A DNA stretch of 64,000 nt, from positions 1-64,000 of the IMG/VR virus record IMGVR_UViG_3300037961_004224; one strand, given 5' to 3'. Origin of the DNA: a virus. The translations under genes and the position numbers were made by a program. Of this stretch, positions 22,290 through 52,921 are shown piece by piece. The notes under the pieces were generated by a model. That model was not told the DNA's origin. It made no database searches and saw nothing but the letters and a program-made list of their open reading frames with translations. Positions within the stretch are counted from its first letter, which is position 1; every line of letters begins with the position of its first letter.

Positions 22290-22580
22290 ATGATTAAAAC
22301 ACTAAGCTTAATGTTTTGTTTGGTACTTCCCACGCTAGATAACTCTATATGGGGAGATGCTATAACAGACCAAGAAAAATGCCAAGCGGAAGCAGACTAT
22401 ATGATTAAGTATCACAAAAACTGTCATGTTGGTCCGTGTATCGGAAGATTTGAAGGTATGGGGTATAGTGTTAATGGAAAAATTCCAAACACCTGTGTGC
22501 CAAATCGTAAAATGAAACTTACAGGCGATGCTACTGCCAGAGATGGCAATAGAGTAGCTAGAGTAAGAAGCTGGAGGTAA
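22290..22580 (+). CDS. Small secreted protein
   Basis: I choose ATG 22290 because AAGGAAGAG lies just upstream and the product then begins with a good signal peptide (MIKTLSLMFCLVLPTLDNS). An in-frame ATG at 22266 would add eight residues. The mature part has four Cys (EKCQAEAD, KNCHVGPCIGRF, NTCVPN), suggesting disulfides. The tmRNA gene begins just after its stop. Confidence 0.55.
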   Translation: MIKTLSLMFCLVLPTLDNSIWGDAITDQEKCQAEADYMIKYHKNCHVGPCIGRFEGMGYSVNGKIPNTCVPNRKMKLTGDATARDGNRVARVRSWR

Positions 22581-22750
22581 AGCATGTATAAAGATTATTA
22601 TTGATGTTGTAGGAGACTGCGGGGCAGTACCGCACACCTCCACTTGCCAAACTAAGGGGGTGAAATAGATTCGATCCACAATATGATGTAGTATATCTCA
22701 TGCACTGGTTGATAGAAGGGCCAGTATAAAAATCTATCAAACTTTTAATT

Positions 22751-22780
22751 GCAGATGAAAATCTTGCTTTGGCAGCGTAA
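22751..22780 (+). CDS. tmRNA proteolysis-tag reading frame
   Basis: The frame reads ADENLALAA then TAA. ALAA is the standard C-terminal degron of ssrA tags recognised by ClpXP. The last codons sit in a 6-bp hairpin (GGCAGC-GUAA-GCUGUC) whose GNRA-type loop holds the stop. The resume codon is inferred as GCA at 22751, ten bases after the pseudoknot. Confidence 0.8.
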   Translation, partial: ADENLALAA

Positions 22781-22793
22781 GCTGTCTGGGGTT

Positions 22794-22827
22794 TGCCAGT
22801 ACCTTATTATCCAAACTGGCATTTTTT
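22794..22827 (+). terminator. Rho-independent terminator of the tmRNA
   Basis: TGCCAGT (22794-22800) pairs perfectly with ACTGGCA (22815-22821), followed by six T. It ends the RNA only about 50 bases after the tag stop, which is why the tRNA-like 3' part cannot lie downstream. Confidence 0.88.
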
Positions 22828-22851
22828 ATGCAATATATATGGTTTTAAAAT

Positions 22852-23088
22852 ATGTTAAAAAAAATATTATATTTATGTTTAATAATTTTTACATTTGCAA
22901 TAGTTATTTGCATCATGCCACGCACCCATAAGTGTCTTCATTGCAACCAAACGTGTTTTTCAGAACCAAATATAGCCTTTTGGATTTCAGGAGACCCAAG
23001 TTGTATTCATGACCATTGCTTAAAAGAATGGGATGGATTTGATTGGAGAATTCCTATGGAATGGCCCCACGGGATTTACATAGAATGA
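22852..23088 (+). CDS. Small membrane protein with Cys-rich domain
   Basis: This 78-residue protein has one N-terminal membrane segment (ILYLCLIIFTFAIVICIM) followed by a short exported or cytosolic region containing CLHCNQTC and SCIHDHC, compatible with a metal site or disulfides. The ribosome-binding site before ATG 22852 is weak. Its stop overlaps the next start (ATGA). Function unknown. Confidence 0.5.
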   Translation: MLKKILYLCLIIFTFAIVICIMPRTHKCLHCNQTCFSEPNIAFWISGDPSCIHDHCLKEWDGFDWRIPMEWPHGIYIE

Positions 23089-47001: not shown

Positions 47002-48090
47002 ATGGGTATTCCAATAGTATACTTTAGAAGTAGTTCTTTTAATTGCCACAGAACTTGTCCCATGCAATTTTATACAGAGTATGTGCTGGGACTTAGAGGG
47101 TTAGGTAATAAGAAAGCAGATAAAGGTACAATAACCCATAAAATACTTGAGATAACAGCACTTTGTAAAAAGGCATCCCAAGACGGTATTAAAGTTATTG
47201 ATGATGAAGATATTGGTGAAGTTTTTACCGATAACTATGACCCTGAATATTTAAATTCTATAGGTATCAGGGTTTATGAATACTACAAAAATATATTTAA
47301 TTACCACAAAGGGAAAAATGCTTGGAGAGATAGAGACTTTGAAGACTGCATGGGCTGGGCTTGGAAGGCTCTGAAATACAAAGATGGCATGTACGACCCA
47401 AGAAAAAGAAATGTTGTAGATGCAGAGCCACATTTTGATTTTGAAATACAAAAAGAATGGGCCAAATATGATTACCCAGAGTATGATTTAAAGGGCTACT
47501 TATCATTGAAGGGTACTATTGATTTAGTGGCAGATATTGGGGACGGTGTGTATGAAGTGATTGACTGGAAAACAGGACAAAGAAAAGACTGGGCTACAGG
47601 TAAAGAGTATAATCAAGGAAATTTATTTAATAATCCACAGCTTAGAATGTATCATTACGCATGTAAGAAGCTTTACCCTCAAGCTCACACGTTTCTAATG
47701 ACCATTTACTTTATAAATACTGGCGGTCCATTCACTGTACATTTCCAAGACTCTGACTTAGAGCAGACAGAAGAGATTTTGAAAAAAAGATTTGAAGAGA
47801 TAAGAAATACAGATCAGCCAAATATTCTACCAAGAATAAGACCTAAAGATAGTTGGAAATGCAGAACAATGTGTGATGCTGGAAAGACTACATTTCAAGG
47901 AACGAACATTGAGCCAATTAAAGAACATCGTCCCGGACAAAGAACAAAGTATGGGGAAGTCATGAGCAAATGCGAACAGGTCAGATACATGATAAAATTA
48001 AAAGGAATTGATTGGGTGACTAACAATTACATGTCACCGGGGCATACTATTGGAAGATACGGTTCTGGTGGGGGAAAGGTTCAGGATTGA
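47002..48090 (+). CDS. RecB/Cas4-like PD-(D/E)XK exonuclease
   Basis: The 362-residue protein has the RecB-nuclease signature: KGTITHKILE (His), LKGTIDLVADI (Asp) and YEVIDWKTGQR (the D-x-K motif), then a Gln-Tyr helix (NPQLRMYHYACKK). It has Cys residues near each end (FNCHRTCP and KCRTMC), arranged so that an iron-sulfur cluster as in Cas4/AddB is possible. It likely degrades or processes DNA ends for recombination. Confidence 0.78.
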   Translation: MGIPIVYFRSSSFNCHRTCPMQFYTEYVLGLRGLGNKKADKGTITHKILEITALCKKASQDGIKVIDDEDIGEVFTDNYDPEYLNSIGIRVYEYYKNIFNYHKGKNAWRDRDFEDCMGWAWKALKYKDGMYDPRKRNVVDAEPHFDFEIQKEWAKYDYPEYDLKGYLSLKGTIDLVADIGDGVYEVIDWKTGQRKDWATGKEYNQGNLFNNPQLRMYHYACKKLYPQAHTFLMTIYFINTGGPFTVHFQDSDLEQTEEILKKRFEEIRNTDQPNILPRIRPKDSWKCRTMCDAGKTTFQGTNIEPIKEHRPGQRTKYGEVMSKCEQVRYMIKLKGIDWVTNNYMSPGHTIGRYGSGGGKVQD

Positions 48091-49979
48091 TGAGATATAC
48101 TCCGCTACACGTTCATTCAGAATACAGCCTTCTTGATGGCCTAAGCAAATGTGAAGATATAGCAAAAAGATTGGAAGTTATAGGTTCTAATGCTTGTGCA
48201 TTGACAGATCATGGTTCAGTTTCTGGTGCTGTTGACTTTTCTAAACAAGCCAAATCTAATGGTATGCGTCCTCTATTGGGGTGTGAGCTTTATGTTTGTC
48301 CTGATGGGCAGGCAACAAACAGAACTAAAGAAAATAGCAAACTAGTACATCAACCCGTTATAGCAAAAAACTTTAAAGGATGGAAAGATCTACTAAAGAT
48401 AGTTTCTTCATCAAACAAAAAAGAGCATTTTTATCATAAGCCCAGAATAGACATGGAAATTATGTCTGAGGTGGCAAGCAATAAAAATTTAATTTGTTTC
48501 AGTGGTCATCTAGGATCAGTGTTGTCAAATGCTATTTGTAATGGAGATGAGCTTGACCCAGATTGGATGAAAAAGGGAAAAGCTATGGCAGAAAGACTTA
48601 GGTCGATGTTTGGCAAGGAAAACTTTTTTATTGAAATACAACTAATAGATTCTAGAATAAATACATTTGCAGCAACTGTCTCCGGTGCATTAAGAGATAT
48701 TTCAAAGGCCACTAAGATACCCTGTGTAGCAACTCCAGACGCACATTACTGCTCTAGGGAAGATGCAGAGGATCAACGTGTACTCTTATGTACGTACTTT
48801 AAAAAGAATATATCTCAGATACAAAGAGAAATAAAACAAGGGACCGCAAATCAATCATTAATAACATTTTTTAAATCAGATAATTACCACATACCTTCAT
48901 ATGAAGATATGAAAGAATTTCATACAGATGAAGAACTACAAAACACAAATCTTATAGTTGATATGTGTGAAGATTATGATATTCTTAAATCACCAGAACC
49001 ACCTCAATTTGTTTGTCCAGATGGGATGTCTCCAGAAGAGTATCTCAGGAAACTTAACAGAGATGGCTGGAATAGAAAAATGCGTCATGTTGAAAAAAAT
49101 AGTGATGAGTTTATTGAATATGGTAAAAGGGTAAATAATGAGCTTGATGTCTTTACTTCTATTGGGCTTTCTAGCTATTTTCTTATTGTCGATGACATTC
49201 TTAATTTCGTTAGAAGCAAGGGATATATTACCGGCCCCGGAAGAGGTTCTGCTGCTGGTTGTATGGTTTCTAATCTACTGGGCATTACTCAGGTAGATCC
49301 AGTACCTTATAATCTTATCTTTGAAAGATTTTACAATGCAGGCAGAAATGCTCCCGGTAAAATATCTTGGCCTGATATTGACTTTGATATACCAAAAGCT
49401 GCTAGAGAAGAAACAATCGAATACATTAAAAGTAAATATGGAGAAGAGTGTGTTGCACAAATACAAACATTCCAAACACTAAAGGGAAAAGCTTCATTAA
49501 CAAGAGTAATGGGTGCTCGTGGCAATATCTCATTTGACGAACAAAAAGCTATTACAAAGTGCTTGCAAGATGAAGCAAAGGTATCTGATGAACTTAAAGA
49601 TATTGAAGAAGAATATGGATATTCATCTAGCATTTTATGGGCACTTGAAAATACACCCGATAAACTAAAACAGTGGTGTCATATAGGAAAAGAAGGAAAG
49701 CTAGAAGGAAGGCTTGCAAAAATATTTGAGCAAGCGATTAGGATTGAGCATACAAAAATTATTGCAGGCACACATGCTGCTGGTATTGTTATTTCGAGTA
49801 ACCCCATTAGTGATTCATGCCCTATGGTATTAGACAGTAAAGGGAAAAGTTATCGTGCTGGATTTGACGGCCCTAGCTGCGAAGATTCAGGGCTACTTAA
49901 ACTTGATTGTCTTGCAATTCGCGGATTAGATAAGGTAATGGATGTGGTTAATATAGTTGGTGGTGAAGACCTATGCTAA
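48090..49979 (+). CDS. DNA polymerase III alpha, N-terminal half (PHP and palm)
   Basis: The 629-residue protein starts with a PHP domain (TPLHVHSEYSLLDGLSKCEDIAKRL, ACALTDHGSVSGAVDF). It then carries the palm: GPGRGSAAGCMVSNLLGITQVDPV, the two catalytic aspartates in WPDIDFDIPKAA, and the third in GLLKLDCLAIRGLD just before the stop. All three catalytic Asp of the C-family palm are therefore here, but the fingers are missing. They are encoded separately at 51284-52921. ATG 48090 is used; TTG 48087 is possible. Confidence 0.9.
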   Translation: MRYTPLHVHSEYSLLDGLSKCEDIAKRLEVIGSNACALTDHGSVSGAVDFSKQAKSNGMRPLLGCELYVCPDGQATNRTKENSKLVHQPVIAKNFKGWKDLLKIVSSSNKKEHFYHKPRIDMEIMSEVASNKNLICFSGHLGSVLSNAICNGDELDPDWMKKGKAMAERLRSMFGKENFFIEIQLIDSRINTFAATVSGALRDISKATKIPCVATPDAHYCSREDAEDQRVLLCTYFKKNISQIQREIKQGTANQSLITFFKSDNYHIPSYEDMKEFHTDEELQNTNLIVDMCEDYDILKSPEPPQFVCPDGMSPEEYLRKLNRDGWNRKMRHVEKNSDEFIEYGKRVNNELDVFTSIGLSSYFLIVDDILNFVRSKGYITGPGRGSAAGCMVSNLLGITQVDPVPYNLIFERFYNAGRNAPGKISWPDIDFDIPKAAREETIEYIKSKYGEECVAQIQTFQTLKGKASLTRVMGARGNISFDEQKAITKCLQDEAKVSDELKDIEEEYGYSSSILWALENTPDKLKQWCHIGKEGKLEGRLAKIFEQAIRIEHTKIIAGTHAAGIVISSNPISDSCPMVLDSKGKSYRAGFDGPSCEDSGLLKLDCLAIRGLDKVMDVVNIVGGEDLC

Positions 49980-49998
49980 TAAACAAGGAGCAAATTAT

Positions 49999-50691
49999 AT
50001 GAAGAATAATCGTTGGATAATATGTTTTGATTTTGAAACTGATCTTCCAGATAAGGACTTGTGCAACCCTGTCCAATTGGCAGCGGTTCCAATTGACCCA
50101 GAAACATTAGAAGTTAAAAAAGATCAAGCTTTTAATGCTATGATAAAACCAGAAGGAATTGATAAACCAGAATACTTTGATGTTCCTAAAAGAGAGGCGA
50201 CTATAAATTGGCACGCACAAAACTATGGAATTACATACGAGGAAGTCATTGAAAAATGGAAAACTGGTGTTTCTGAAAAGGTTGCTTGGAAAAACTTTGC
50301 AACCTATTGCAAAAAATACACCGTAGACAAAAAACCCGGACAATGGTTTCCAGAACCAATACCTGCGGGGTATAATATCACTGGGTTCGATATTCCAATC
50401 GCTGAGAGGTTGTGCAAAAAGCATAAAATTAAAATGCCATTCTCATCAGTAACAAAATTAGATGCTATGGATAATTTATTCTGGTGGTTTGAAAATCTAG
50501 AAGAACCATATGATTTTAAAATGGATACTTGGAGAAAGTTCTTTGGAATTAAAATGAAAGGTGGAATAGCACATGACGCACTGACTGATGTTTTTGAAGA
50601 GTCTGCTATTGTTACTAGATTTATGAAGTTTCATAGAAAACAATCTTCTGTTGGTAAATTTAAAGGAAGCTTTGCGAATGTCTCGATATAG
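49999..50691 (+). CDS. DnaQ-like 3'-5' exonuclease
   Basis: ATG 49999 follows AAGGAG. The 230-residue protein has the DEDD exonuclease motifs: ICFDFETDLP (exo I), PAGYNITGFDIPIAERL (exo II) and IAHDALTDVFEESA (exo III, DEDDh type). It is a likely proofreading subunit. Its gene lies exactly between the two halves of the polymerase, which is a notable arrangement. Confidence 0.82.
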   Translation: MKNNRWIICFDFETDLPDKDLCNPVQLAAVPIDPETLEVKKDQAFNAMIKPEGIDKPEYFDVPKREATINWHAQNYGITYEEVIEKWKTGVSEKVAWKNFATYCKKYTVDKKPGQWFPEPIPAGYNITGFDIPIAERLCKKHKIKMPFSSVTKLDAMDNLFWWFENLEEPYDFKMDTWRKFFGIKMKGGIAHDALTDVFEESAIVTRFMKFHRKQSSVGKFKGSFANVSI

Positions 50692-50965
50692 GTTAGCATT
50701 GGCAATTATTTTTGTTTTGCTTTGTATAGTAGACAATATATTTACATATGAAGTAACAAGATGGCCTTTATACCAAGAAATAGCACCGGTCGCAGTCCTC
50801 ATGCTTTCAATACCATACGGACTTTGGATTCAAAAGTTTTGTGTGTGTCTGGGTTTGTATTATTTTAGAGAGAAGATTAGTAATCAATTTTTGTGTGTTT
50901 TAAACGCAGCTATGCTGTTCATAGTTTGCAACAACGGCTACTTATATTGTAGGGTAATATTTTAA
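50678..50965 (+). CDS. Small multispan membrane protein
   Basis: ATG 50678 follows AAAGGAA and overlaps the exonuclease end. The 95-residue product has three hydrophobic segments (YRLALAIIFVLLCIVDNIFTY, AVLMLSIPYGLWIQKFCVCLGLYYF and FLCVLNAAMLFIVC). It resembles DUF5658-type membrane proteins in layout. Its location inside the polymerase locus suggests an insertion. Function unknown. Confidence 0.5.
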   Translation: MSRYRLALAIIFVLLCIVDNIFTYEVTRWPLYQEIAPVAVLMLSIPYGLWIQKFCVCLGLYYFREKISNQFLCVLNAAMLFIVCNNGYLYCRVIF

Positions 50966-51294
50966 TGTATGAATATAATGCTAAAGTTGATCGTGTTGTT
51001 GATGGAGACACTGTAGACTTTATTGTTGATCTTGGATTTAATATCAATATAAAGATCAGGACTAGACTGATTGGTGTTGACACACCAGAAAGAGGACATC
51101 CAGACTGGAAAAAGGCAACAGCCGAATGTGCAAGATTGCTTTCTTCTGTAGCAGATATTCACAGTGCTTCTATTGGAAAACCAGAACACTGGGTAAAAAT
51201 AAAAACAACGAAAACAGGGAAATATGGTCGTTGGCTTGTAGAAGTTGATGGTGTAACAGATAAATTAGCAGAGACTTGGCCCTATGAAAAATAA
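50965..51294 (+). CDS. Staphylococcal-nuclease-like protein
   Basis: The 109-residue protein has the SNase fold signatures: VDRVVDGDTVDFIVDLGF (calcium-binding Asp), RTRLIGVDTPERGH (catalytic Arg and Glu) and GKYGRWLVEVDG (second Arg). It has no signal peptide, so it would act in the cytoplasm. It overlaps the polymerase C-terminal gene by 11 bases. Confidence 0.82.
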   Translation: MYEYNAKVDRVVDGDTVDFIVDLGFNINIKIRTRLIGVDTPERGHPDWKKATAECARLLSSVADIHSASIGKPEHWVKIKTTKTGKYGRWLVEVDGVTDKLAETWPYEK

Positions 51295-52921
51295 CTATAT
51301 TGAGTTCCCATGTGGTTGTAAGTTTGAAAAAAACTCAAAAGGTCTTCCAATATTCAATCCTAACATTGAAGCACTGCCATTGCATTGTGAAAGAACTTGG
51401 GATATGATTTGCGAAGGGAATACCAAGGGTGTATTTCAGCTTGAATCTCAACTCGGTCAAAGCAAAGCAAAAGAAGTAAAGCCAAGAAGTATAGAAGAAC
51501 TATCAGATCTGATTGCAATCATCAGGCCGGGGTGTGGTGATGCAATTGTAGACGGTAAATCTCTTACCCAGCACTATATTGATCGTAAAGCAGGAAGAGA
51601 TGATGTCAAATACTTTGATCCCAGACTAAAACCAATATTAGAACCAACTTATGGAATCTTGGTATATCAAGAACAAGCTATGCAAATAGCACAACTGGTT
51701 GCTAATTTTTCTTTAGGACAAGCAGATAATCTTCGTAAGGCTATTGGTAAAAAGAATGTTGATCTTATGGCCAAGGTAAAGAAAGAATTTTTAGAAGGTG
51801 CTATTGCTCAAGGAAACTTTACTGAAAAAGATGCTGAAGAGATTTTTAGTTGGATCGAGAAGTCTCAAAAATACTCGTTTAACAAATCTCACTCAGTAAG
51901 TTACGCACTCAATGGATATCAAACTGCTTATGCCAAAGCCCATTTCCCTAGAGCTTTTTTCACCTCATATCTTCGTCATGCTGATGGTAAACCAAAGCCA
52001 TTTGAAGAAATAAATGAATTAGTAAATAACGCTAGACTTATGGATATAGACGTGCAACCACCTAGCATTGTTAATATGAACTCTAATTTTTGTTTAGTAA
52101 ATAAACTTCCAACATTTGGTCTAGTGAATGTTAAAAGCGTTGGTATGAGTGTGTTTAAGCAAATAGATGCAGTAGTAAAGCAAAATTCATATAATGTGTC
52201 TGATATGGGCTGGGATAAATTTTTAATGAAGGTTGGTAGGTATATTAAAAGTAATTCTTTTGAATCTATGATTAGAGCCGGTGTTTTTGATTGCTACAAG
52301 AAACAAAGAAATAAAATGCTTTATGACTTTAACATATATAAAGAGTTAAAAGATTTTGATAAAGACTATCTTACAAAAACAAAGTGTAAAACATTTGTAG
52401 AAGCTCTTGAAGATTTGATCCCATACATTAAAAAGACTAAAAGAGCTACAGTGCATACGGAAAGACATATTGAGCAAGTTAGAGGGTCAATATCAGCACT
52501 AAAATCCCCACCATATGAATTGATTGACAGGCCAGCTTGGAGGGCAAAGCAAGAGAGAGATTTGCTTGGCGTAGAAATAACATGCTCAGAAGTTGATGAG
52601 TATGATACAACAGATGGAAATTGCAGTTGTAGAGAATATGTAAAAGGTTTTGAATCTAATTACATAGCTATAGCAGCACAAATAAGTGACATTAGAGAAT
52701 GGAAGATCAGGGGCGGAAAACACAAGGGAGAGAAGATGGCATTCTTAAAAATTAGTGACAGTTCTTGTTCGCTTGATAATGTTACTGTTTTTTCAGAAGA
52801 CTGGCAAAAACTAAAAAGTAAAATTGTTATAGGTAAGATATTGCTTCTTAGAGGAAACAGAGATAAAAATCGAGGAAGTTTTTTAGTAAAACAAGCACAA
52901 AACCTAGAACAATGTATATAA
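51284..52921 (+). CDS. DNA polymerase III alpha, C-terminal half (fingers and DNA/beta-binding region)
   Basis: The 545-residue protein begins with a short Cys-containing lead (EFPCGCKFEKN). It enters the C-family fingers with KGVFQLESQLGQSKAKEVKPRS, then IIRPG and GILVYQEQAMQIAQLVANFSLGQAD, and ends with an OB-type domain (YIAIAAQISDIREWKIRGG...AFLKISDSSCSLDNVTVF). It continues exactly where the 48090 gene stops, so both proteins must assemble to make polymerase. Its ribosome-binding site is poor; it may rely on coupling to the SNase gene. Confidence 0.9.
   Translation: MKNNYIEFPCGCKFEKNSKGLPIFNPNIEALPLHCERTWDMICEGNTKGVFQLESQLGQSKAKEVKPRSIEELSDLIAIIRPGCGDAIVDGKSLTQHYIDRKAGRDDVKYFDPRLKPILEPTYGILVYQEQAMQIAQLVANFSLGQADNLRKAIGKKNVDLMAKVKKEFLEGAIAQGNFTEKDAEEIFSWIEKSQKYSFNKSHSVSYALNGYQTAYAKAHFPRAFFTSYLRHADGKPKPFEEINELVNNARLMDIDVQPPSIVNMNSNFCLVNKLPTFGLVNVKSVGMSVFKQIDAVVKQNSYNVSDMGWDKFLMKVGRYIKSNSFESMIRAGVFDCYKKQRNKMLYDFNIYKELKDFDKDYLTKTKCKTFVEALEDLIPYIKKTKRATVHTERHIEQVRGSISALKSPPYELIDRPAWRAKQERDLLGVEITCSEVDEYDTTDGNCSCREYVKGFESNYIAIAAQISDIREWKIRGGKHKGEKMAFLKISDSSCSLDNVTVFSEDWQKLKSKIVIGKILLLRGNRDKNRGSFLVKQAQNLEQCI

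Follow-up and report, generated by a model that had tools for sequence, protein, structure and literature searches.

A circularly permuted tmRNA gene in a tailed phage, and an HNH endonuclease gene in the spacers of its relatives

The DNA analyzed here, a stretch of 64,000 nt referred to below as the window, comes from a 126,253-base virus record of IMG/VR. In the gap between one ORF with its end at 22580 and the next, which begins at 22852, it contains the parts of a tmRNA (the RNA that releases stalled ribosomes) in circularly permuted order. The locus raises the questions of whether these parts make up a working gene and of how a phage lineage came to have it in this form.

A cmscan search of the 64 kb against 4227 families returned a match to RF04321 (tmRNA_permuted), Rfam's merged permuted model (PMC11915505), at 22582–22780 on the plus strand, covering the full model length at 84.3 bits (cut-off 47; E = 1.1e-14). 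RF04321 is the sole Rfam family above its cut-off within the 64 kb. The beta_tmRNA model (RF01850) reached 48.3 bits, under its cut-off of 84, and the remaining models of the clan scored lower: alpha_tmRNA (RF01849) was unlisted, below the 48.3 bits of the beta model and short of its own cut-off of 50, and cyano_tmRNA (RF01851) gave no match above its gathering score in the window. The preliminary description had looked to the covariance models for confirmation, which the merged permuted model provides and the alpha, beta and cyano models do not. The standard tmRNA model (RF00023), with the halves in standard order, has no match across the whole 126-kb record, which holds a single permuted tmRNA gene. 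The gene is laid out as follows.

22582–22617, plus strand: 5′ strand of P2, starting GCATG and running into the T arm; opens the first RNA piece (start of the RF04321 match; fold)
22618–22634, plus strand: T arm, stem TGCGG/CCGCA (22618–22622/22630–22634) with loop GGCAGTA (read directly)
22635–22642, plus strand: 3′ acceptor strand CACCTCC (22635–22641) and discriminator A, then CTT (read directly)
22643–22655, plus strand: intervening spacer of 13 nt between the pieces (read directly)
22656–22662, plus strand: 5′ acceptor strand GGGGGTG, in which G3 (22658) pairs with U70 (22639)
22663–22703, plus strand: D-loop region, with GATTCGA at 22668–22674, and 3′ strand of P2, ending CATGC (RF04321 match; fold)
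22704–22740, plus strand: pseudoknot PK1, ACTGG/CCAGT (22704–22708/22721–22725) and TTGATAGA/TCTATCAA (22709–22716/22733–22740)
22751–22780, plus strand: tag frame GCAGATGAAAATCTTGCTTTGGCAGCG TAA, encoding ADENLALAA and a stop, intact (read directly)
22788–22820, plus strand: PK2, a second H-type pseudoknot, GGG/TCC (22789–22791/22810–22812) and GCCAGT/ACTGGC (22795–22800/22815–22820), with a T run after it at 22822–22827

The order runs from the 3′ acceptor half through the spacer and the 5′ half to the tag, the first RNA piece starting 2 nt past the stop codon of the upstream ORF and the 5′ strand of P2 pairing with 22674–22703 in the fold. The acceptor, T stem, GATTCGA word, P2, pseudoknot, tag and 13-nt spacer all lie where the preliminary description had placed them. 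It had recognized a single pseudoknot; two are found, PK1 and PK2, and the supposed terminator after the tag is mainly PK2, with no call from a terminator scan at that place. Permutation itself is upheld, whereas the argument that a terminator forces it fails because PK2 belongs to the RNA. A PK2-like motif also follows the tag in standard phage tmRNAs; PK2 and the trailing T run may in addition terminate transcription.

To ask whether the structure is maintained, relatives were gathered through a GMP-reductase-like neighbor, through acceptor, T-arm and tag patterns and through covariance-model searches of whole records, and the structure derived from the window was scored on an alignment of 19 related phage sequences with their halves joined. 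Standard pairs occupy 93.3% of cells (76 when shuffled, with no shuffle equally good), changes on both sides are seen at 23 of the 34 named pairs and in 105 cells (31 ± 4 when shuffled), and the covariation score of 0.474 compares with at most 0.108 when the partners are slid. In the acceptor, 100% of cells are paired across the 19 sequences and the two strands vary in concert (GGGGGTG/CACCTCC, GGGGGCG/CGCCTCC, GGGGATG/CATCTCC and GGGCGTG/CACGTCC), covarying as GUG/CAC, GCG/CGC and AUG/CAU; G3·U70 (the U-G pair of columns 69/75) is invariant in 19/19, and three other pairs are compensated. G3·U70 is the alanine identity element, and the window gene has it together with the 7-bp acceptor and A73. 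The T stem is paired in 95.6% of cells, with all five of its pairs changed on both sides, and the outer P2 pairs covary (GCAUG/CAUGC, GAUUG/CAAUC, ACAUG/CAUGU); L243, a chimera, has mismatched outer P2 pairs. The two PK1 stems are paired in 100% and 95.4% of cells, with both-sided changes at 10 of 13 pairs. In PK2, the GGG/UCC stem (UCC or CCC) is kept in 96.5% of cells, and the second stem, GCCAGU/ACUGGC, is paired in 73% of cells of a gapped, shifting region of the alignment. The tag ends in ALAA or AMAA in 23 of the 23 sequences of the group, the tags of relatives including ADESLALAA, AEETLALAA, VEENFALAA, AEPSFALAA and DVETYALAA. Across the 19 sequences, the acceptor, P2 and PK1 pairings on which the preliminary description had staked its reading are compensated rather than broken; its identification of a circularly permuted phage tmRNA gene is borne out by the RF04321 match, the compensatory changes and the tag in agreement. 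Judged from sequence, 22582–22820 is very probably a functional tmRNA gene in circularly permuted form, carried by a tailed phage in a lineage that has both gene forms.

Several observations count against a working gene. ARAGORN, to which the preliminary description had also turned, makes no call in the window, probably because the loop GGCAGTA replaces TTCRANT; surveys based on ARAGORN miss some phage permuted tmRNA genes. The minimum free energy of the window fold has a z-score of −2.0, computed without pseudoknots. The absence of an encoded CCA and the non-standard T loop also weigh against function, and both are common to the relatives. The same GGCAGTA loop occurs in many phage permuted tmRNAs, and bacterial permuted tmRNAs have GGCGGTA; we rejected the idea that the T loop has decayed, since alpha-type (alphaproteobacterial permuted) genes share it. 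CCA is mostly unencoded in the window's group, is encoded in 115 of 120 pattern-matched phage stretches, among the matches listed, and is not always encoded at the CCA position of tmRNA genes (PMC11915505). That the locus is a decayed remnant, as the ARAGORN miss and the missing CCA might suggest, is highly improbable given the compensated pairs, the intact tag and the 84-bit match. The RNA could instead be a tmRNA mimic that poisons host trans-translation rather than supporting it, as reported for a CDS-less RNA of DS6A (PMC11915505), and the unusual T loop and the lack of a phage SmpB (no smpB was found in 40 phage records, the window's included) would fit such a role; tag, stop, PK1 and G3·U70 are nevertheless all conserved, and we consider a mimic very unlikely.

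A working gene would probably be transcribed from an upstream promoter, since it begins 2 nt after an ORF, to yield a single precursor. Host RNase P would cut before G22656 and host 3′ processing would trim behind A22642, so that the 13-nt spacer is lost; a host enzyme would add CCA, because none is encoded. The two pieces would be held together by the acceptor and P2, whose pairs are supported by covariation. Charging with alanine is expected from the invariant G3·U70 and A73, and with host SmpB as partner the RNA would enter stalled ribosomes, encode ADENLALAA and pass the tagged products to ClpXP-type proteolysis. The phage likely benefits by keeping ribosomes free while host mRNA is destroyed. 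Because end processing rather than splicing would discard the spacer, the spacer should tolerate inserts and would be a safe place for a homing gene.

The question of origin was addressed with 40 records: that of the window and 39 related records, among them G001, which is nearly identical to the window's record. Searches with two proteins found no isolated phage above 60% protein identity. Within the window, the DNA polymerase gene (48087–52921) is present as two ORFs, 48087–49979 and 51284–52921, that match adjacent parts of phrog_405 (to 615 and from 623), with an exonuclease-like ORF (49957–50691) and two small ORFs between them. Across the 40 records, the permuted cut-off is passed by six besides the window and the standard cut-off by 17, and ARAGORN directly calls several of the standard tmRNAs. 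A dCMP-deaminase-like gene lies just downstream of both permuted (G013, L229) and standard (G008, L225) tmRNA genes. The permuted L396 and the standard L225 share the tag VEENFALAA, and their 3′ halves are 88% identical. At a strict pattern, no phage-type 3′ half was found in bacterial genomes.

In a tree of 79 joined tmRNA halves, in which no cyanobacterial sequence is included, the window group is placed among the standard tmRNAs of phages, and a branch with 96/98 support sets it apart from the alpha-type permuted genes, phage and bacterial alike; betaproteobacterial-type permuted genes group with bacterial standard ones. Approximately unbiased (AU) tests do not reject a single clade of all permuted genes (p 0.09), or of the window group with the alpha (p 0.16) or the beta types (p 0.18); the overall range is 0.09–0.22, on a signal of only ~240 nt with recombination. 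The halves also differ in their affinities: the T-arm half of the window gene is nearest alpha-type phage tmRNAs (72%, vs 62–67% for standard phage tmRNAs), and its 5′ half is nearest standard phage tmRNAs (66–67%, vs 62% for alpha-type phage tmRNAs). A permuted tmRNA of alphaproteobacterial type could be the source from which the gene was captured, the origin reported for phage Melnitz, with no separate lineage involved; the GGCAGTA loop, the T-arm similarity and the surviving alpha clade would agree with capture, while the affinity of the 5′ half, the 96/98 split and the ordinary T loops of several relatives (L396, L164), with 3′ halves up to 88% identical to standard phage tmRNA, oppose it. 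On balance, we regard capture as unlikely. Recombination between tmRNA halves, with the window gene a chimera bearing an alpha-type T arm, fits the sequence comparisons best, and the window group is possibly a separate permuted lineage in phages.

The spacer is a second point of difference, seen in the relatives rather than in the window. It measures 5 nt (CTTAC) in L236, L238–L240, L242 and L246, and in other relatives 13–36 nt, 112 nt (G004) or ~600 nt with one gene, the acceptor halves remaining complementary across all spacer lengths. The gene in the ~600-nt spacers encodes a protein of ~180 aa (phrog_3322, 2.3e-28; endonuclease VII, 3.5e-16), has a TATAAT-like box of its own, and has its stop codon within the 5′ acceptor strand or immediately beyond it (GGGGGTGA), overlapping the acceptor or D-arm region. 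Such an HNH/endonuclease VII-like gene occupies the permuted spacer in L244/L250 (G006), L243/L251, L245/L252, L248/L253, L254, L255, L256 and L268–L272. At ≥56% identity, 12 of 14 endonuclease relatives are in permuted spacers (L250–L256, L268–L272), and the other two, the near-identical L273 and L274, lie behind a standard tmRNA; in L272, RF04321 aligns across the entire endonuclease insertion (1369–2141, 61.8 bits, cmscan). Further endonuclease relatives are mostly found behind standard phage tmRNAs (L257–L261, L263, L280, L287, L292–L314 and L230 [G019]), the distant copies (36–47%) mostly 49–85 nt past the 3′ end. A structural test score of ≥22 was obtained at 57 of 84 loci (47 standard, 10 spacer), whereas among 1500 random placements 19 reached it. 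Some T loops of six bases escape the rule and were read by eye. L248, with the gene, and L242, without it, have downstream flanks identical letter for letter over the stretch compared. As part of the working-gene explanation, in which our confidence is high, an HNH endonuclease gene would home to the position directly past the tmRNA 3′ end, a position that corresponds to the spacer in a permuted gene.

Other arrangements were seen at these sites. Directly past the endonuclease stop in L273 and L277, a partial second tmRNA 3′ end, ending CCTCCACTT, was recognized by eye; it looks as though the element arrived with a tmRNA 3′ end that took the place of the original and displaced it. The 112-nt spacer of G004 (L163/L222) contains a tRNA-like stretch ending CCCA; an ordinary tRNA was dismissed, with no ARAGORN call and an unremarkable fold. 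The left edge of this spacer, CTTAATTTTCG, is that of the L255 endonuclease cassette. Endonuclease relatives are on the opposite strand beside the tmRNAs in L286 and L332. Bacterial genomes yielded one endonuclease relative, which does not adjoin a tmRNA. Distant relatives are also carried, not beside a tmRNA, by the crAss-like phages L391–L393, with RAGATH RNAs in L391 and L393 and group I introns in L392 and L393 nearby on the opposite strand; as these relatives adjoin group I introns or other RNAs, the wider endonuclease family is not tmRNA-specific.

The presence of one endonuclease family both at standard 3′ ends and in permuted spacers bears on how the permuted form arose. Independent permutation in phages is favored here rather than established. 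One route would be tandem duplication of a standard phage tmRNA with a homing gene behind its 3′ end, followed by loss of the outer halves; what survives would read [3′ half]-spacer-[5′ half], the endonuclease being either kept or absent, in agreement with the published model of tandem duplication and loss (PMC3978253). Both forms occur in the same phage group, and in L229 and L225 both sit just upstream of the dCMP-deaminase-like gene; these observations speak for the route. On the other hand, the duplicated intermediate was not found, the AU tests leave single-clade trees standing, the direction of change is unpolarized in a tree without cyanobacterial permuted genes, and the endonuclease could have invaded genes that were already permuted. 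The route is possible, if doubtful. That the endonuclease promoted permutation is our conjecture, and the fuller account, in which a separate lineage was born in phages, an endonuclease at the 3′ end helped permutation, the spacer is an intron-free homing site and the window gene is the allele without endonuclease, is put forward tentatively, as less likely than not. We know of no recent case in which the tandem-duplication model could be examined; tmRNA genes have been permuted on several occasions, and a phage group with both forms and an endonuclease at the junction makes the origin testable. The spacer genes also suggest how a homing gene could reside within an RNA gene that is needed, with no intron around it. 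Searches of open-access text turned up no earlier description of a homing gene lying in the spacer of a permuted tmRNA; a recent survey describes LAGLIDADG genes in group I introns, one spacer with a tRNA and another with a repeat (PMC11915505).

Considered alone, the window gene is ordinary in kind, as phage permuted tmRNAs are already known and abundant. The preliminary description had thought a phage copy unusual, which does not hold: a two-piece tmRNA has been described for phage Melnitz, two-piece forms make up 53 of 133 unique phage tmRNA structures, nearly all aquatic (PMC9004378), and at least 120 IMG/VR stretches fit one exact acceptor pattern, at least two of which (L023, L025) are chance matches by eye. 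The gene resembles RF04321 in half order, acceptor, T arm, P2 and tag and exceeds its gathering score, but the model is without PK1 and PK2 and was seeded with bacterial sequences (alpha, beta and cyano). Like the permuted tmRNAs of Melnitz and other marine phages, it is phage-borne and carries a tag; that of Melnitz was reported to be alpha-related and riboswitch-linked (PMC9004378), whereas the window gene sits with standard phage tmRNAs in the tree and lacks an encoded CCA. The betaproteobacterial model RF01850 scores best among the older models of the clan and has a similar pseudoknot after the tag, although the score is below its cut-off and the bacterial beta genes lie elsewhere in the tree. 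The alphaproteobacterial RF01849 shares the T loop GGCRGUA but differs in the 5′ half. The standard phage tmRNAs L225, L230 and L231 are alike in PK2, the 3′ half, the mostly absent CCA and, in places, gene order, but they are unpermuted and have extra sequence and pseudoknots between the tag and the 3′ half. Finally, tmRNAs with group I introns that carry LAGLIDADG genes (PMC11915505) match the window's relatives in having a homing endonuclease gene inside the tmRNA gene; there the gene is carried by a self-splicing intron that interrupts the T loop, whereas in the relatives described here an HNH/endonuclease VII-like gene occupies the spacer with no intron.
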